Assembly: GCA_902765395.1 (NCBI GenBank)
Contig: CACWZP010000033.1
Span: 1 to 56,943 of the forward strand
Direction of reading: 5' to 3'
Origin: an uncultured Eubacteriales bacterium
GTDB taxonomy: Bacteria; Bacillota; Clostridia; Christensenellales; Aristaeellaceae
Length of the DNA stretch: 56,943 nucleotides
Part shown: positions 32,913-41,127 of the stretch, piece by piece
Layout: each line of letters begins with the position of its first letter
Position numbering within the stretch: the stretch's first letter is position 1
Program-made: the position numbers and the translations under genes
The notes under the pieces: generated by a model
Database searches by the model: none
What the model saw: only the letters and a program-made list of their open reading frames with translations
Told to the model about the DNA's origin: nothing

Positions 32913-33504
32913 CCACAACCGCTGCAAGTTCTGCACGATGTACAAGGACGTGCCCTTCCGGATGTCCCCGATGGAGTGGATCGAGGAGGATCTGCGGGAA
33001 CTCGCCCGGACCGACCCGGACGCGACCACGATCCAGCTGCTGTCCGCCAATCCGCTGGTGCTGCCCTACGACAAGCTGGCCCCGATCCTGGAGATGATAC
33101 GCCGGTACCTTCCCAAGATGGAATACGTCTACCTCGCCGGGCGGGTCACGGACCTGAAGAACAAGACCGTCGGGGAACTCAAAAAGCTGAAGGAGCTGGG
33201 CATGCGGGAGATCTCGCTGGGCGTGGAGAGCGGCGACGACTGGACGCTGGATCGCATCCACAAGGGCTATCACGCCTCCGACATCCTGGAGCAGTGCCGC
33301 AAGCTGTAGGAGGCCGGCATCGCCTACTGGATGACGTTCCTGAACGGCGTGGCGGGCAAATCCCACAGCCGGGAACACGCCATCCACTCTGCGGAGATAC
33401 CGGAGGCCAAGGGAGAACTGCTCAAGTATATCGAACAGTTCATGGAAAACAGCGATGAAAAGGAGCTGCGGGCATACAGGGAGAGAATCACCCGTGCGTT
33501 TTAG
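32908..33504 (+). pseudogene. Radical SAM protein remnant
   Basis: The frame starts at the cluster motif CTHNRCKFCTMYKDVPF, with three Cys to bind a 4Fe-4S cluster, and continues through LLSANPLVLPYDKL and LGVESGDDWTLDRIHKG, which are radical SAM core features. The N-terminus is missing, TAG at 33307 interrupts the frame, and between AIHSAE and IPEAKGELL a large middle piece is gone. It ends with TAG at 33502. The gene is dead: N-terminal loss, a nonsense codon and an internal deletion. Confidence 0.75.
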
Positions 33505-33860: not shown

Positions 33861-35000
33861 ATGATTCTCATAAACGCCGCCGCGGAGGCCGTCGCGCTGT
33901 ATTTCGACGCGCGCGGCCCCGCCTTTGCGCTGCCGCTGACGGTGCTGACGGTGATCCAGTTCTCCATCACGCCGATGCTGCCCGTGTTCTTTGTCGGCGC
34001 GCTGGGCATGTGGCGGCCGGCCGTCGTGGCCTCGACGGCGTTTTGCCTGCACGCGGTGGCGCAGATCGTCTCCGCGCCCTTCGGCTGGATATTCCGCTAT
34101 GACGCGATGGGAACGTACATCCGCGGCCCCTGCTACGGCCTTACCAGGCGTGCTTCATCAGCCTGGTGTTTTTGATCGTCTGCCTGGTGATCGTGGGCAG
34201 GCGCTTCAAGCATCGGGACCTGTTCACCATCGGCATGATATTCGTGGTGATGGCCGCCGCGCTGCTGCTGAACAAGGTGTACACCAATTACATTGGCATC
34301 GGCATGTGTGCGTCGCTGTGCTACATCTATTACAACGAACTCAAGCAGGATATCCAGCTGGCGCTCATAGCCAACCAGGAGAAGATGTCCCGGATACAGG
34401 AGCACATCATCTCCGGTCTGGCCAACCCGATCGAGTACCGGAACATGGAGACGGGCGAGCACGTGGTGCGCACCAGCCGCTATGTCCGGGCGCTCTCCGA
34501 GTTTGCCAGGGCGGATCACGTCTACGCGGACCAGCTGACCGACCACTTCGTCGCCCAGCTGGCCAGGGTCGCCCCGCTGCACGACGTGGGCAAGATCGTG
34601 GTGCCCGAGACATCCTGAAGAAGCCCGGAAGCCTGGCGGAGATGGAATTCAACCAGATCAAGCGCCATGCCTCCGAGGGCGGCAGGGTCATCCGCGAGGT
34701 GCTCGGGGGCGTCGCGGAGGATGAATACCTGGCGCTGGTGTCGGATATTGCCGCCTGTCACCATGAATACTGGGACGGCGGCGGGCATCCCAACGGGCTT
34801 TCCGGCGGGGAGATCCCGCTGTCGGCCAGGATCATGGCCGTCTCGGATGTATATGACGCCCTGGTCTCTGCGCGCTGCTATAAAGAGGCCCTGTCCGCGG
34901 ACGAGGCCTTCGGGATCATGCGGGAGGAGGCGGGCACCCACTTCGAGCCCAACCTGACAGGGGTGCTGCTCAGCCACAGGAGTGAGTGGATCAATCTGCT
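33861..35000 (+). pseudogene. Membrane HD-GYP-type phosphodiesterase gene broken by frameshifts
   Basis: Three frames join into one protein. An N-terminal membrane part (ALPLTVLTVIQFSITPMLPV, FLIVCLVIV) is followed by a helix and the HD domain with HDVGK. HHEYWDGGGHPNGL and IPLSARIMAVSDVYDAL then complete an HD-GYP-like c-di-GMP phosphodiesterase, with GGHP in place of GxGYP. The frame shifts by a missing base near 34141 (GLYQAC expected) and again near 34611 (VVPEDILKK expected). The C-terminal end is also unclear, since the frame runs on through a terminator. Either a pseudogene or base-call errors. Confidence 0.7.
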
Positions 35001-35125
35001 GCCTTGGCGAACATCTTCGTCGTTTCCCCCGGTTTGGAGCCATCATCAATCCCGGCCCGCCGCCTTAACATACAGGCAGAACCAGCATAAATCCTGCGGG
35101 AACGCCGACAGCCTTGTTCCATGCC

Positions 35126-35286: not shown

Positions 35287-37086
35287 TCATTCCGACTGCC
35301 GGGCGCTGCCGTGGTAGCGGAAGCAAAGCATGGTGATGTCGTCAAACTGCTCCGCGCCATCCACGAAGGCCCGGATGCCGTCCATTACGTTTTCCAGCAC
35401 GCGGGCGCAGTCGGCATCCGGTTCCCGGTTCAGCGCGGCCAGCATGCGATCGGTGCCGAAGAGCGTCTCATTCCGATCGGTCGCCTCGGCCACGCCGTCC
35501 GTGTAGATGAACAGGCTGTCGCCGGGGTGCAATTCAAATTCGTGCTCGGGGAACTTCGAGCGCTTCAGGATGCCCACCGGGGAAGCGTGCCTGTATTCCA
35601 CCAGCTCGTATTGTCCGCCGGCGCGGCGCAGGGTGGGGTGCTCATGGCCCGCGTTGGCGGCCACGCCGCGGCCGGTGGAGAGCTCCACCACGGCCAGCCA
35701 AACCGTGACGAACAGCCCCTTCTGGTTGTTCTCCAACAGCTGCTTATTCACGCCGGTCAGCGCCGCGGCCGAGCTTTCTCCCGCCTGCAGATGGTTCTTG
35801 ATGAGGATCCTGGAGACCATCATGAACAGCGCGGCGGGCACGCCCTTGCCCGAGACATCGGCCATCACCAGGGCGATGTGGTCGTCGTCCACCAGGAAGA
35901 AATCGTAAAAGACGCCGCCCACGGTTTTGGCCGGGATCATGGAGGCATAGATATCGAACTCCGCGCGATCGGGGAGCGCCGGGAAATTCGACGGCAGCTG
36001 GCCGCTCTGAATGGAGGCCGCCAGGTCCAGCTCCGCGCCCAGGCGCTCGCGCTCGGCGTTGATGCGCAGGTTTTCCGCCGTGTAGCGATCCATTTCCTCC
36101 GCCATATAGGCGATGCTGTCCGCCAGCTTGCCGACCTCGTTTCTCTCCCGGATCTTCGCCATGCTGTCGACAGCGGCCTTTCCGTCCTTGGTTTCTATGT
36201 AGGCGCGGATGCCGTCGTTCACCTGCACCATGGGCCGCACCGCCCTGAAATAGATAATCAGGATCAGCAGCGCGTCGATGAACAGCAGGCTGATGCCGCC
36301 CCATAGCGCCATGGACCTGAAACTGACGTTCAGCATGTGTGTAAAGGCGGGCCAGTCGTACTCCAGGCACACGATGTACCGCAGCGTGTCGTCCACGATT
36401 ACCGGCGCCACGGCCAGGTACATCAGCTGGTCGTATTCCGTATCCTCCAGCCGTTCATACAGGATATCCCCATAGTCCTCGCCGTAGACGCCGTTTTGCA
36501 GGTTGTCCACGACCGCGAAGGCCTCTTCCTTGCTCCAGTATTCTCCCAGGCAATGGTAGCCGCTCTCATCCGCGTCCTGGCTGCACTCCATGATGACATA
36601 GATGTCGTCCCTGTCCGCGCCGTACAGTTCGTCGTCATTGCGGACATCCATGATGAAAACGGAGTCAAACCGGCCGCGCTCCCTCTGCTTGTCGAACCAG
36701 TTGATCAGATATCGGTAAATCGCCTTCAGGAATGTCCGGCGAGCCTCCGGGGTCTCGAGCGCTTCCACGGTTTCTCATGTGACAGACTTGGCGGCGGAGT
36801 CCGAGTATTCCAGGCTCTCCAGCATGGCCTCGTCGTCTTCGGTGATGGGTTCATCCATCATTTCCGGATCGCTCTGCCATTGATCCAGCACCCAGCCCGC
36901 GACCTCCGGGTTCATGAACAGCGCCTTGCACTCTTCCATATCCTGCTCGATCTGCTCGTTCTGGGATTCGATGTACAGCTTTTACGTTCCCCGCGCCACG
37001 ATGGTGCCGATCAGGATGAGCGCAAGGATAAAAGCCACCGTAACGATCAGGCTTACCTGCACTGCCAGCTTTCTGTTCTTCTTCAT
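35287..37086 (-). pseudogene. RsbU-type PP2C (SpoIIE) phosphatase with membrane sensor, two in-frame stops
   Basis: The full frame from the ATG at 37086 is 599 codons: a signal-anchor (VSLIVTVAFILALILIGTIV), an extracellular sensor region, a second membrane segment (MALWGGISLLFIDALLILII), a HAMP-like linker, and a SpoIIE/PP2C domain (ERLGAELDLAASIQSGQLP, DDDHIALVMADVSGKGVPAAL, GDSLFIYTDGVAEA, FDDITMLCF). The metal-binding Asp residues are present. TAA at codon 35 and TGA at codon 104 interrupt it. A 493-residue product could start at 36768, lacking the first membrane segment and part of the sensor. It is the last gene of the ABC/partner-switching operon, where it should dephosphorylate the STAS protein. 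Confidence 0.8.
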
Positions 37087-37175
37087 GAATGCTCCTCATC
37101 AGCGACGCGGGTGTTTGCAGACGGAAGGGGGATTGCCGCCGCCGATCCCGTTTGCGGGTCGGCGCCGTGGTTCCA

Positions 37176-37583
37176 TTACAGGCGCTTCGTGAGCGTCAGG
37201 ATGTTCTGTCCGTCCCTGTACTGGTAATCGACGCCATCCATGTATTGCCTGGTGACGAAGACGCCCAGCCCGCCCCGCGGGCGCTCGCGCAGCGGCCGGC
37301 GGATGTCGGGGTCCGGCCTGGCCAGCGGGTCGTAGGGCGCGCCCCAGTCCACGAAGCGGACGATGACGGATGACGGGTCCTGCGAGGTTTCAAACCGGAC
37401 CGCGGCGGGACCTTCCTCCGGGCTGTAGGCGTAGCTGGCGATGTTCACGAAGACTTCCTCCACGGCCACGTCTATCTGAAACTGGTCTGTCGGGCTGCAG
37501 CCCAGGGCTTCCAGGTTCGCGTCGACGAATTCCAGCACCTGCGGCAGGTTTTTCGCCGTTGCCTGAACAGACAATTCCTTCAT
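37176..37583 (-). CDS. RsbW-type anti-sigma factor kinase (HATPase)
   Basis: 135 residues, a GHKL ATPase of the RsbW/SpoIIAB group that binds a sigma factor or phosphorylates a STAS protein. N-box VAVEEVFVNIASYAY (Glu and Asn present), G1-like VDWGAPYDPLA, and the G2 region GGLGVFVTRQYMD. The ATG at 37583 has GGAGAG upstream; the frame reaches into the neighbouring gene (37694) without support. It is followed by RsbU and preceded by the binding-protein gene in one operon. No sigma factor gene is nearby. Confidence 0.85.
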   Translation of the reverse strand: MKELSVQATAKNLPQVLEFVDANLEALGCSPTDQFQIDVAVEEVFVNIASYAYSPEEGPAAVRFETSQDPSSVIVRFVDWGAPYDPLARPDPDIRRPLRERPRGGLGVFVTRQYMDGVDYQYRDGQNILTLTKRL

Positions 37584-37651
37584 TTTGACATGCTCTCCAT
37601 AAAAATGCCAGCCATGCCGGGCTGACCCGGCATGGCGAGGCGTTTCGTATT

Positions 37652-38665
37652 TTATTTCCTGGCCACCAGCACGGTGCTGTCGGTATAGTAGCACCCGGTG
37701 ACGATCATGCCCTCCGGGATGTCCTTGCCGGCGTAACCGACGTAATCGAAGGCGGGAACCAGCTGGTTGCTGATCAGATCCAGCATCGCCGCATCTTCCT
37801 CATCCTCGATGTCGAGCAGCTCCGTCCAATCGATGTCCTCGTCGATGAACTCCTGCACGCCCATGCAGCTGCGGCTCCAGAAGACCGCGTCCACCTGGTC
37901 GGAGGCGAGCGCCATGGAGCGGGCGGCGGCGCTGATGGGCACCAGTTCGAAGTTCACGCCGAGGCGAGACCCGAGCTCCGCCAGGATCGCGACGTTGAAG
38001 CCCGAGGGCCGGCCGTCGGGACTTACATAGTCCATGGGCGGCAGATCGCCGGTCACGGCGACGCGAATGGTTTCAGCACCCTCAAAGACGGGCATCTCGA
38101 CGGTCGGGATCTCGCCGTTGGTCGCGCCGGCGATGTAGGTTTCTCCCATCTCATCCAGGGCGTCCTCGTCGATGGAGTACAGCGCGTCGGTCAGTTCGTC
38201 CGCCAGGTCCTGCTTTTCCGCCTTGAGCATCATCGAGAAGTCGAAGCCCATCAGGGAGTTGAACAGGAAATCGGTCAGGATGTTGTCCTCGTCCTGATAA
38301 TCCAACAGGACCACCAGGTCGTCGTTGCTGGCGCACAGGTATTCGGCCGTGGTCCGGTTCAGGTCGATGGCGTCGATCTGGTTGGCGTTCAGCGCCATGA
38401 CCATGTCGTTCAGGGTGTCAAAGTATATGATTTCCGGGTTTTCATCGATCATGCCGTCATAGTAGGGGTGCTCGGCGGGGATGCCTTCCGCGTTCAGCAT
38501 TTCGCCGGCATAGGCGCGCAGCTTCTGGATGCCGGCGTAGTCCGACTCGTTCATGTTCAGCATCTGCAATGTGCCGATGCGCTTGATCGCGCCTTCGGCC
38601 AGCGCAGGCGCCAGCATGGCGCAAATCAGAACAAGGGCGACGGTGATGGCGATGGTTTTTTTCAT
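37652..38665 (-). CDS. Polar amino-acid-type ABC transporter substrate-binding protein, two lobes in tandem
   Basis: 337 residues with a signal peptide (KKTIAITVALVLICAMLAPA LAEG). The C-terminal half is a family 3 binding domain: IRVAVTGDLPPMDYVSPDGR, GFNVAILAELGSRLGVNFEL, ASDQVDAVFWSRS. The N-terminal half resembles another partial domain (ENPEIIYFDTLNDMVMALNANQIDAIDL, the typical lobe-2 strand). The product is likely exported and may act as sensor for the linked phosphatase. The gene lies 12 bp after the ATPase gene. Confidence 0.8.
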   Translation of the reverse strand: MKKTIAITVALVLICAMLAPALAEGAIKRIGTLQMLNMNESDYAGIQKLRAYAGEMLNAEGIPAEHPYYDGMIDENPEIIYFDTLNDMVMALNANQIDAIDLNRTTAEYLCASNDDLVVLLDYQDEDNILTDFLFNSLMGFDFSMMLKAEKQDLADELTDALYSIDEDALDEMGETYIAGATNGEIPTVEMPVFEGAETIRVAVTGDLPPMDYVSPDGRPSGFNVAILAELGSRLGVNFELVPISAAARSMALASDQVDAVFWSRSCMGVQEFIDEDIDWTELLDIEDEEDAAMLDLISNQLVPAFDYVGYAGKDIPEGMIVTGCYYTDSTVLVARK

Positions 38666-38677
38666 TTTTTTTCCTCC

Positions 38678-39775
38678 TCACAATACGATGGTCAATTGAT
38701 TGCGGTTTTGTTCAAACCGATAATCCGTGCGCTGGGCGGTCCGCTTGATGATGGCGACCGCGAGGAAATTGTCCGATTCCTCCAGGGGGTTGTAGGGCTT
38801 GCCGCCGCTGGCGATCTGGATGATCACGGAGCGGTCCGCGTCGGCGTGGGAGATCTCCAGGTGGACATCCGCGGCATCGCCGTCCGGGAAGCAGTGGTTC
38901 AGGAAGTCGACCACCATCTCCTCGGAACAGACCTGCAGCGGGTAGACGCGGTCCGGCTCGATGCCGTACTTTTCCACGAAGCCCTGTATGCCGCCCTGCA
39001 TGGCCATCAGGTCGAAGCGCTTTTCCGAGATGTCGAAGGTGAAGTACTTGATCTTGCGGATAAAGGCGATGGTCTTTTCCCGCTTCGGACTGTCGAAGAT
39101 CTCGGAGGGCGCGCCCTGCTCGTAGATGCCGCCGTCCGCGAAGAACAGCACCCGGTCGGCCACCTCCCGGGCGAAGTTCATCTCGTGGGTGACGATCAGC
39201 ATGGTCATATTCTGCTTGGCCAGCATGCGGATCACCGCCAGCACCTCGCCCACCATGGTGGGGTCCAGCGCGCTGGTGGGCTCGTCGAACAGCAGCACCT
39301 TCGGCTCCATCATCAGGCACCGGCAAATGGCGATGCGCTGCTGCTGGCCGCCGGAGAGCACCGTGGGCCAGGCGTGGGCGCGGGTGGCCAGGCCGACTTG
39401 CTCCAGCAGCCCCATGGCCTTCTTCTCCGCTTCCTCGCGGGTCATCAGCTTGCGCAGCACCGGGGCCAGGCACAGGTTGTCCATCACATCCATCTCGGAA
39501 AACAGGTGGAACCGCTGGTATACCATGCCCATGCTGCGGCGAATCCGGTCCACCTGGCCGCCCCTGGCGGCGGTGATCTCCTGCCCGTCGATGAAGATCT
39601 GCCCCGCATCCGGCTTTTCCAGCAGCTCCAGCGAGCGCAGGAACACGCTCTTGCCGCAGCCGCTGCCGCCGATGATGGCGATGCGCTCGCCCTGCTCCAC
39701 GGTCAGGTCGACGCCCTTCAATACCTCCAGCGAGCCGAAGGACTTCTTCAGCCCCCTGACTTCGATCAGGCTCAT
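38678..39775 (-). CDS. Polar amino-acid ABC transporter ATPase fused to a degenerate RsbW-like domain
   Basis: 365 residues. Residues 1 to about 245 are a GlnQ/HisP-type ATPase: Walker A GGSGCGKS (36-43), Q-loop MVYQRF, signature LSGGQQQR, Walker B LLFDEPTSALDP, His in VTHEM. Residues about 260-365 align by eye with the RsbW protein of the same operon. VCSEEMVVDFL corresponds to VAVEEVFVNIA, GGKPYNPL to GAPYDPL, and both end with TDYRF or VDYQY and LTIVL or LTLTK. In the fused copy the N-box Asn is Asp, and GGLG is lost. The domain therefore probably no longer binds ATP and may be a docking module for STAS or sigma partners. Start overlaps the permease stop by 4 bp. Confidence 0.8.
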   Translation of the reverse strand: MSLIEVRGLKKSFGSLEVLKGVDLTVEQGERIAIIGGSGCGKSVFLRSLELLEKPDAGQIFIDGQEITAARGGQVDRIRRSMGMVYQRFHLFSEMDVMDNLCLAPVLRKLMTREEAEKKAMGLLEQVGLATRAHAWPTVLSGGQQQRIAICRCLMMEPKVLLFDEPTSALDPTMVGEVLAVIRMLAKQNMTMLIVTHEMNFAREVADRVLFFADGGIYEQGAPSEIFDSPKREKTIAFIRKIKYFTFDISEKRFDLMAMQGGIQGFVEKYGIEPDRVYPLQVCSEEMVVDFLNHCFPDGDAADVHLEISHADADRSVIIQIASGGKPYNPLEESDNFLAVAIIKRTAQRTDYRFEQNRNQLTIVL

Positions 39776-40443
39776 TTTCCAGCGCCTCCCCTCTTGCGGT
39801 CGGTCAGCGCGAAGACGCCGTATACCAGGTAGCTCAGGGCCAGATAGATCAGCATGCCGATAATGGTGGTCAGCAGCGGCTGCATGGTGCGGGAAGCGGT
39901 GTTGTTGATGACGCGGGTCAGGTCCGTGATGGTGACGTAGCCCACCACGCTGGTCCACTGGATCAGGTTCACGATGGTGGACTGAAACACGGGCCTGGCC
40001 GTGCGCAGCATCTGGGGGAGCGTGACCAGCCGAAACGCCTCCCACGCGGTCATGCTGAGCGTGCGGGCCGCTTCCATCTGCCCGCGGTCCGAGGCCTCCC
40101 AGGCCGCGCGCAGCAGCTCCGCCACGTGGGCGGAGACATTCATCCCAAAGGCGATCACCGCCACCATGACCGGGGATATGCCGTAGCGCGCCAGCACGCC
40201 GTAGAACAGCAGGAGCAGCAGCATCAACACCGGCGTGCCGCGCAGCACGGCGATGTAGACCTGGGCAAACCGCCGGGGCAGCGCGCTCTTTCGCGTGCGC
40301 AGCAGGCAAAACAGCGCCCCCAGCGCGGTGCCCAGCAGCAGCGCCAGGGCCGATATCTGCACAGTCACCCAAAGGCCGTTCAGTATGGTTATCCATGAAC
40401 CGCCTTCGATCAGGATCTTATAGAGCTTATCTCCAAGGCCCAC
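39772..40443 (-). CDS. Polar amino-acid ABC transporter permease (HisM/GlnP type)
   Basis: 223 residues with about five hydrophobic segments (WVTVQISALALLLGTALGAL; VLMLLLLLFYGVL). The EAA-like loop is AARTLSMTAWEAFRLVTLPQ. It pairs with the ATPase downstream and the binding protein. Only one permease is present, so a homodimer is expected. The gene begins 15 bp after the STAS gene. Confidence 0.9.
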   Translation of the reverse strand: MGLGDKLYKILIEGGSWITILNGLWVTVQISALALLLGTALGALFCLLRTRKSALPRRFAQVYIAVLRGTPVLMLLLLLFYGVLARYGISPVMVAVIAFGMNVSAHVAELLRAAWEASDRGQMEAARTLSMTAWEAFRLVTLPQMLRTARPVFQSTIVNLIQWTSVVGYVTITDLTRVINNTASRTMQPLLTTIIGMLIYLALSYLVYGVFALTDRKRGGAGK

Positions 40444-40458
40444 CGAATCACTTCCCCG

Positions 40459-40758
40459 TCACTCTACGCCCAGCGCGTCCGTAAGGCCGGTGATGTCGAA
40501 GATGTTCCGCACGTCCTTGTTCGCGTTCAGCACCTTCATTTCGCCGTCCCTGGCGTCTATGACATGGGCGGCGCTCAGCAGCACCCTCAGTCCGGCGCTG
40601 GAGATGTAGGCCAGGGAAGCGAAGTCGAACACGAGCGTTTCGACGCCTTCCAGAGCGGGCTCCAGCGCCTGCTCCAGCTCCGGCGCCGTCAGCGTGTCCA
40701 GGCGTCCCTCGACCGCCACGGTCAGTTTACTGCCTTCCAGAATCTTTTTCATCGTCAT
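40459..40758 (-). CDS. STAS-domain anti-anti-sigma factor
   Basis: 99 residues, a single STAS domain: VEGRLDTLTAPELEQAL, LVFDFASLAYISSAGLRVLL. The serine before AGLR is the usual phosphorylation site of SpoIIAA/RsbV. It is the first gene of the operon with ABC importer, RsbW and RsbU, and has AGGAGG before the ATG. The RsbW protein should phosphorylate it and the RsbU phosphatase reactivate it; this is known for the families and inferred here. Confidence 0.9.
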   Translation of the reverse strand: MTMKKILEGSKLTVAVEGRLDTLTAPELEQALEPALEGVETLVFDFASLAYISSAGLRVLLSAAHVIDARDGEMKVLNANKDVRNIFDITGLTDALGVE

Positions 40759-40802
40759 ATGCTCAATCCTCCTGACGAGATCTGAATCCGCGTTTTTTCA
40801 TG

Positions 40803-41127
40803 ATTGTCGGCGTGCGCCCTTCGGGGCCCGCCGACCCGCGCAACCGGCCTTCGGCCCGGTTCGCTAATCATTATAACACGATTGTCGGCGTGCGCCCTTC
40901 GGGGCCCGCCGACCCGCGCAACCGGCCTTCGGCCCGGTTCGCTAATCCATTATAACACGATTGTCGGCGTGCGCCCTTCGGGGCCCGCCGACCCGCGCAA
41001 CCGGCCTTCGGCCCGGTTCGCTAATCATTATACTAATCATTATAACACGATTGTCGGCGTGCGCCCTTCGGGGCCCGCCGACCCGCGCAACCGACCTTCG
41101 GCCCGGTTCGCTAATCATTATAACATG
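40803..41127. repeat. Four tandem copies of a 78-90 bp hairpin and promoter-like unit
   Basis: Units begin at 40803, 40881, 40960 and 41050 (period 78, 79 and 90). Each has GTCGGCG...CGCCGAC enclosing a GGGC/GCCC stem with a TTCG loop, then AACCGG...CCGGTT with another TTCG loop, then CTAATCATTATAACA. On the minus strand the last part reads TGTTATAATGATTAG, an extended -10 box directed towards the STAS operon. A diverged inverted relative lies near 41291-41330. Confidence 0.85.

Follow-up and report, generated by a model that had tools for sequence, protein, structure and literature searches.

The subject of this analysis is a gene cluster in a 56,943-nucleotide stretch of DNA, the window, from an uncultured Eubacteriales bacterium of the family Aristaeellaceae (assembly GCA_902765395.1, contig CACWZP010000033.1, positions 1 to 56,943, forward strand). 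Six minus-strand genes, which span positions 40758 to 35287, encode in this order a STAS protein, the permease, ATPase and binding protein of an ATP-binding cassette (ABC) importer, an RsbW-type kinase and an RsbU-type phosphatase. The six genes and their order, as given in the initial annotation, are borne out by the open reading frames (ORFs) and by Pfam and NCBIfam matches. Partner switching, the type of regulation to which the switch genes of this cluster point, is known mainly as sigma factor control. Here, the ATPase ends in an RsbW-like domain that is predicted to be kinase-dead, and the importer itself is probably the output of the switch. The features are:

40459 to 40758, minus strand: STAS protein of the SpoIIAA/RsbV type, 99 residues, phospho-acceptor motif YISSAG
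39772 to 40443, minus strand: ABC permease of the polar amino acid type (Pfam/NCBIfam), 223 residues, GTG start
39050 to 39775, minus strand: nucleotide-binding domain of the ABC ATPase, residues 1-242, with Walker A/B and LSGGQ
38681 to 39049, minus strand: RsbW-like C-terminal domain of the ATPase, residues 243-365, predicted kinase-dead; stop codon at 38678-38680
37652 to 38665, minus strand: substrate-binding protein, family 3, 337 residues, with a signal peptide-like N-terminus
37611 to 37636, minus strand: terminator-like hairpin that separates the binding-protein gene from rsbW; perfect 11-bp stem, then T5
37176 to 37583, minus strand: stand-alone RsbW-type kinase, 135 residues, motifs E43, N47, D79, G81 and GGLG
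35287 to 37086, minus strand: frame of an RsbU-type membrane PP2C phosphatase with two in-frame stops; longest open part 35287-36768

According to the ORF coordinates, successive genes are 15 bp apart, overlap by 4 bp and are then separated by 12, 68 and 89 bp. The importer proteins match PF00005, PF00528 and PF00497 above cut-off, i.e., they have the domains of a polar amino acid ABC importer; the permease is of the HEQRo type (NCBIfam TIGR01726, above cut-off), and the ATPase, 365 residues in total, contains the Walker A sequence GGSGCGKS as well as LSGGQ and Walker B. Because no NCBIfam equivalog cut-off was reached among the matches listed for the importer, its substrate is given no name. 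The second serine of the YISSAG motif, which we take to be the phospho-acceptor as in RsbV and SpoIIAA, is kept in 48 of 48 aligned STAS proteins. The stand-alone RsbW possesses the N-box E..N, the G1 DxG, the GGLG motif and the ATP lid, and from these residues it looks catalytically intact; its NCBIfam RsbW equivalog scores are below cut-off. A STAS protein with a phospho-serine motif, a kinase and a PP2C phosphatase are thus encoded together, the PP2C gene itself being broken in the window.

The C-terminal 123 residues of the ATPase (below, the tail) constitute a domain of the RsbW/SpoIIAB fold, as judged from a structural model and from fold and profile comparisons. The AlphaFold model of the tail has a mean predicted local distance difference test score (pLDDT) of 95.3 and a predicted template-modelling score (pTM) of 0.88 (93.9 and 0.77, respectively, for the full ATPase). 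When the tail model was compared with the PDB using Foldseek, all 13 matches at E ≤ 1e-3 were SpoIIAB, UsfX or RsbW, with template-modelling scores, calculated on the query, of 0.62-0.79. A profile of 82 tails was matched by hhalign to a profile built from 17 stand-alone RsbW proteins with a probability of 98.6% (E = 6.6e-16), and the tail of the window on its own matches Pfam HATPase_c_2 with E = 1.4e-4, below the gathering score. Another kind of ABC regulatory domain was considered and rejected, as there was no such Pfam match and Foldseek returned only the three protein types named above at E ≤ 1e-3. The initial annotation had singled out this C-terminal domain as a candidate for binding STAS and RsbW, which was apt, its RsbW-like nature having gone unnoticed there.

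In the window, the tail lacks the asparagine, the aspartate and the lid by which an RsbW kinase binds ATP and Mg (the roles of the Mg asparagine, the G1 aspartate and the lid are presumed from SpoIIAB). In a joint alignment of 132 ABC-fused rows (130 distinct) with 24 short stand-alone rows, the Mg-binding Asn is kept in 7 of the 132 tails and the G1 Asp in none, the latter position being occupied by Tyr (55), Cys (28), Ser (19), Trp (16) or other residues, and the lid stretch comprises 6-9 residues in 118 tails. The short stand-alone rows retain the Asn in 23/24, the Asp in 21/24 and a 19-residue lid in 21/24 cases, two of these 24 being edge-cut pieces that were placed among transporter tails in the tree discussed below; all 17 picked stand-alone RsbW proteins, the one of the window included, keep E, N, D, G and GGLG. 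The ABC-fused tails are predicted to be kinase-dead, and a role of the tail as an active second kinase was set aside in view of the loss of the Asn, the G1 Asp and most of the lid. Each of the two N-box glutamates is kept in 131 of the 132 tails, and this retention in the face of the lost ATP site suggests that an interaction surface has been preserved. The same observation argues against the explanation that the tail is a mere dimerisation or stability module without any partner-switching contact, found near switch genes by coincidence or shared ancestry, which we think rather improbable even if regulatory C-terminal domains of ABC proteins often dimerise.

Tailed ATPases were found in the genus, family and class of the source organism and in a wider scan, such that the idea of a locus unique to this contig is rejected. 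The tail is present in 10 of 28 genomes of the genus (11 loci, E < 1e-30), in 26 of 150 genomes of the family (E ≤ 1.1e-13, the ABC part having been checked in some of them) and in 12 of 391 genomes of the class (own genome included, E ≤ 6.7e-14). In the wider scan of genome contigs, for which the junction and the tail were used as the query, the best 80 of at least 540 relatives were kept; ATPase and tail reside on a single ORF in all 80 loci, a number that shows where the fusion occurs rather than its rate because the query contained the tail. Judging from record titles, which may be wrong for metagenome-assembled genomes (MAGs), these loci are found in MAGs and isolates of several phyla and include Clostridia, Selenomonadaceae, Synergistaceae, Bacteroidales, Chlorobiaceae, Chloroflexi (Flexilinea flocculi), Cloacimonadota and other MAGs. 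Named carriers are Acetobacterium dehalogenans DSM 11527, A. tundrae, Blautia schinkii DSM 10518, Oribacterium sp., Selenomonas ruminantium S137 and Oscillibacter valericigenes; in A. dehalogenans DSM 11527 and B. schinkii DSM 10518 switch genes adjoin the importer.

The tailed importers have three architectures, i.e., separate genes as in the window, an ATPase-tail gene adjoining a permease to which at least one binding domain is fused, and a single chain of 900-1173 residues with binding domain, permease, ATPase and tail. Examples of the single-chain importers are found at L122:5653-8382, L106:7691-11107, L109:5393-8911 and L177:7091-10501, with CstA genes adjoining those of L106 and L109. 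Adjoining single-chain tailed importers, a STAS domain is fused to an APH-family phosphotransferase domain (L108:4079-5239 and L109:3972-5306), possibly a further STAS-linked kinase branch. Permeases with five tandem binding-domain matches per chain occur at L189:4822-9429 and L202:7286-11866, and the genome of the window itself encodes a second tailed importer (G000:C22, L023:5656-9784) in which several binding-domain matches are fused to the permease.

The link between importer and switch genes, on which the initial annotation was built, is confirmed and is met again in many places outside this contig. Of the two refuting conditions named in that annotation, uniqueness of the six-gene order does not hold: the order is found again in G026:C6, where the permease end and the ATPase start are missing, and in part in G019:C3, where STAS, permease, ATPase and binding protein genes are accompanied by two convergent RsbU genes, with no RsbW within the 9 kb read. 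Other arrangements are RsbU-RsbW-STAS-importer, all in one direction (L093), STAS-RsbU/RsbW-SDF-single-chain importer (L122), RsbU-importer-STAS (L203) and tailed ATPase-STAS-RsbW (L221), while in L112/L181 an RsbW, an RsbU and a tailed MATE transporter adjoin the importer, i.e., a single RsbW/RsbU pair is found with two tailed transporters. In L221 and L203 the STAS gene either overlaps with the gene of the tailed ATPase or lies almost directly against it, which would also fit a direct binding of STAS to the nucleotide-binding domain, as in the MlaB-MlaF pair, the RsbW-like tail being secondary. MlaF belongs to another ABC family, however, and a STAS partner of the RsbW fold is already fused to the present ATPase, for which reasons we consider direct binding very unlikely. 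Its precedent is the binding of the STAS protein MlaB to the ABC ATPase MlaF (PMC7367683).

Among the 80 loci, 28 of which are shorter than 15 kb, a STAS (<500 residues), RsbU or RsbW gene is found within 10 kb of the tailed ATPase in 24 and within 5 kb in 23. Four further loci have only a tailed transporter within 10 kb and one has only a long STAS protein; a figure of 30/80 results from a looser count that also admits transporters with a tail, STAS proteins of greater length and, probably, another tailed ATPase. In 15/80 loci a switch gene lies on the same strand at ≤300 bp from the importer block, and on the basis of Pfam matches alone a SpoIIE-family phosphatase is encoded within 10 kb in 11/41 tailed loci. 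For comparison, untailed sister ATPases of the same 20 genomes were used as controls, the 40 being the top untailed rows and thus a non-random sample (G160:C1, with an open frame of 474 residues, and G148:C51:18232 were passed over), and 27 of the 28 tailed loci were counted (G143:C3 was left out). A switch gene was found within 8 kb in 9/27 tailed and 3/40 untailed cases (Fisher p = 0.0098), within 2 kb of the importer block in 7/27 and 1/40 (p = 0.006), and within 300 bp in 4/27 and 0/40 (p = 0.023); one control match, L267, is near an RsbW whose neighbour is a sigma factor. The nearest switch gene shares the strand of the importer in all nine tailed cases, and both this and the enrichment relative to the sister ATPases argue against a tail that serves only dimerisation or stability.

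The domain is also found in 37 other long proteins that are neither ABC nor RsbU fusions. All 34 of those that were Pfam-scanned are transporters (29 MATE, 3 SDF, 1 EamA and 1 Xan_ur_permease), a recurrence on unrelated families that again disfavours the dimerisation module. The HATPase_c_2 match is above cut-off in 26 of the 29 MATE proteins and below it in L217, with no listed match in L100 and L206. For the SDF, EamA and Xan_ur transporters this match is below cut-off or not listed, and their tails, identified with our own profiles, are tentative; that of the Xan_ur protein is very divergent. The kinase residues are better preserved in these long proteins (Asn in 25/37, Asp in 28/37) than in the ABC tails, and some of the long proteins may bind nucleotide. 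In a tree of 112 domains, kinases (27 rows) and transporter tails (85 rows) are separated with a support of 100/100, the kinase side including the divergent Xan_ur tail and the transporter side two short edge-cut ORFs; in a quick tree from which the catalytic and lid columns and the two edge-cut rows were removed, 84 transporter tails fall on one side with a Shimodaira-Hasegawa-like approximate likelihood ratio (SH-aLRT) support of 99. We put it at slightly better than even odds that one domain derived from RsbW, and kinase-dead in the ABC importers if not elsewhere, was grafted onto several transporter families (ABC, MATE and probably SDF, EamA and purine-type permeases) in several phyla and that STAS phosphorylation is a general, fast switch of transport. 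As side observations, the genome of the window encodes a tailed MATE transporter (G000:C13, L110:8583-10634), and partial-profile PF13581 matches occur in ORFs of about 440-520 residues.

A sigma factor as a hidden output of the cluster was set aside. The genome has 16 Sigma70_r2 matches, none of them on this contig, and in ten of ten genomes no Sigma70_r2 match was found near the tailed-ABC cluster, Sigma70_r2 being the one sigma family searched; on contigs shared with such a cluster, the nearest match is more than 50 kb away. The statement of the initial annotation that no sigma factor is present holds to this extent, i.e., for the Sigma70_r2 family. The linked sigma target of a sigma-controlling partner switch is therefore missing from these ten genomes as far as this family is concerned, and RsbW-sigma neighbours occur elsewhere in several of them (e.g., G000:C14 and G260).

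A tail predicted to be kinase-dead, related tails on MATE and probably on other transporters, and a single RsbW/RsbU pair in L112/L181 make up the pattern that is expected of several outputs of one switch. We assign a probability of about 60% to a partner-switch circuit whose output is the importer itself, gated by docking of STAS on the tail. The basis that the sequences and models provide is the architecture, the fold, the lost ATP-site residues, the STAS and RsbW motifs, and the linkage above control, and from it we infer the steps that involve RsbU, STAS docking and competition by RsbW. RsbU would respond to an outside signal through its membrane/extracellular sensor part and dephosphorylate STAS; unphosphorylated STAS would use the glutamate face kept by the ATPase tail as its docking site and thereby switch ATP hydrolysis, and with it transport, on or off. 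Active RsbW would compete for STAS and phosphorylate it, thus removing it from the tail. One RsbU/RsbW/STAS set would be able to gate several transporters by way of the related tails of MATE and other families.

The initial annotation had proposed the reverse, i.e., that the importer or its binding protein senses a small molecule and sets the switch, with the output left open. In a specific form, substrate flux would alter the hold of the tail on STAS, and free STAS would report nutrient supply to a distant target. The tail could act just as well as a sink for STAS, there are known cases of importers that serve as sensors of two-component systems, and binding-domain matches are often multiplied in the tailed importers. 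However, the RsbU frames of the window and of the relative L025 seem, by eye, to carry a membrane/sensor part of their own, tails are also found on MATE and probably on symporters, two tailed transporters share one RsbW/RsbU pair in the L112 cluster, and no Sigma70_r2 gene lies near the ten clusters, this being the kind of target that was searched. Given the fused domain, predicted to be kinase-dead, the other tailed transporters and L112/L181, the sensor role is less likely than the importer as output, and we regard it as unlikely.

Several observations weigh against the importer as output. No switch gene lies within 10 kb in 56 of the 80 tailed ABC loci (strict count) or within 8 kb in 18 of the 27 loci of the control comparison, i.e., ABC relatives are mostly found without switch genes, a result that the initial annotation had named as counting against the link, with many of the contigs being short. 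Because most tailed loci have no switch genes nearby, action of STAS in trans must be assumed in many cases, and the figure of 56/80 is also what a mere dimerisation module would lead one to expect. No STAS gene is present in the 20 kb around the A. dehalogenans cluster, and the G068 genome (91% complete) has a tailed ABC protein and no SpoIIE-family phosphatase match. Two counterparts of the cluster are damaged, the importer being truncated in G026 and two genes (permease and binding protein) being split in G019, and the detection profiles, trained partly on tailed loci, may favour these. At the level of the tail, just 26/82 sequences match HATPase_c_2 at E ≤ 0.01 and the tail profile gave no match at E ≤ 0.1 against PDB sequences; since direct sequence matches are weak, the case for homology is built on comparisons of profiles with profiles and of folds. 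The two trees were calculated from few columns in relation to the number of rows and are read as unrooted. The model leaves the sign of the STAS effect two-way (on or off), and binding, phosphorylation and transport are its predictions. Finally, the RsbU copy in the window is broken, and the local switch therefore either relies on another RsbU or is decaying.

The phosphatase ORF at 36768-35287 covers no more than the downstream portion of a larger frame, which starts with an ATG at 37086, has an N-terminal segment that is hydrophobic by eye, and is interrupted by in-frame stops at 36984-36982 and 36777-36775. In addition, the catalytic metal aspartate (VGG-D) is replaced by valine; at this position Asp is found in 31 of 33 aligned rows, the remaining two being the window and a row with a gap. 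Because of the two stops and the Asp to Val change at the metal site, the gene is probably dead in this assembly, i.e., the type of a membrane RsbU phosphatase was correctly assigned in the initial annotation, which had taken part of a broken frame for an intact gene. The hairpin at 37611-37636 (folding z = -4.3 for the 72-nucleotide stretch that contains it) is terminator-like and precedes rsbW, which makes a single unbroken transcript uncertain: the small gaps noted previously are confirmed, a single operon transcript is not. No such hairpin is found in L025, which has the same gene order.

Downstream of the cluster, on the opposite strand, an HD-domain gene at 33861-35046 is apparently in pieces across different frames, and a short radical SAM ORF is found at 32938-33309. 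These observations suggest decay or assembly errors in the stretch, two causes that are indistinguishable here. Directly 5' of the STAS gene, at positions 40802-41125, a GC-rich and palindrome-like element of 78 bp is present in four tandem copies; it has 23 whole or partial matches in the genome, the copies of the window included.

No description of RsbW-like tails on transporters was found in searches of an open-access collection, which leaves aside bioRxiv and most subscription journals. In the accessible part of a 2023 review of transporter regulation (PMC10710835), LacS is given as the sole example of a bacterial transporter regulated by direct phosphorylation and there is no mention of STAS, anti-sigma factors or RsbW. 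Likewise, the available text of a review of STAS-only proteins (PMC8256260) does not mention ABC transporters, MlaB or MATE, and states that the target of the STAS protein is unknown for SypA and RbaV. The authors of the MlaB study left phospho-control of MlaB as an open question and met with no other STAS-ABC pair among PDB structures (PMC7367683); if the circuit proposed here is correct, their question would become testable where kinase and phosphatase genes adjoin. A STAS-docking domain in transporters would then supply a target and give bacteria a phosphorylation switch for transport, and there would be a branch of partner switching with transporters, not sigma factors, as targets. The importer as output would also answer the point that the initial annotation had left open.

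Among known systems, RsbU-RsbV-RsbW-SigB and SpoIIE-SpoIIAA-SpoIIAB-SigF are partner switches of Bacillus. As in these, a STAS protein with a phospho-serine motif, an RsbW-type kinase and a PP2C phosphatase are clustered here, but there is no adjoining Sigma70_r2 gene and an additional RsbW-like domain, predicted to be kinase-dead, is found on a transporter ATPase. The cluster would work like a partner switch; judged by its residues, the tail is not an RsbW kinase. The ATPase, permease and family 3 binding protein match the families of the GlnQ/HisP/TcyN-type polar amino acid importers, from which the present system differs in length, the untailed sister ATPases having about 240-300 residues and the tailed ones about 365 or, as single chains, 900-1173. 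MlaFEDB of E. coli likewise pairs a STAS protein with an ABC ATPase, whereas here kinase and phosphatase genes adjoin, the ATPase has an RsbW-like tail and the transporter is a polar amino acid type importer rather than one for lipids. MetN and MalK are transporters with regulatory domains, and as in these and in LacS a domain of the transporter would receive the regulation; in contrast to all three, the domain has the RsbW/SpoIIAB fold, and what is proposed to bind it is a STAS protein under phospho-regulation rather than the substrate or a protein of the phosphotransferase system.

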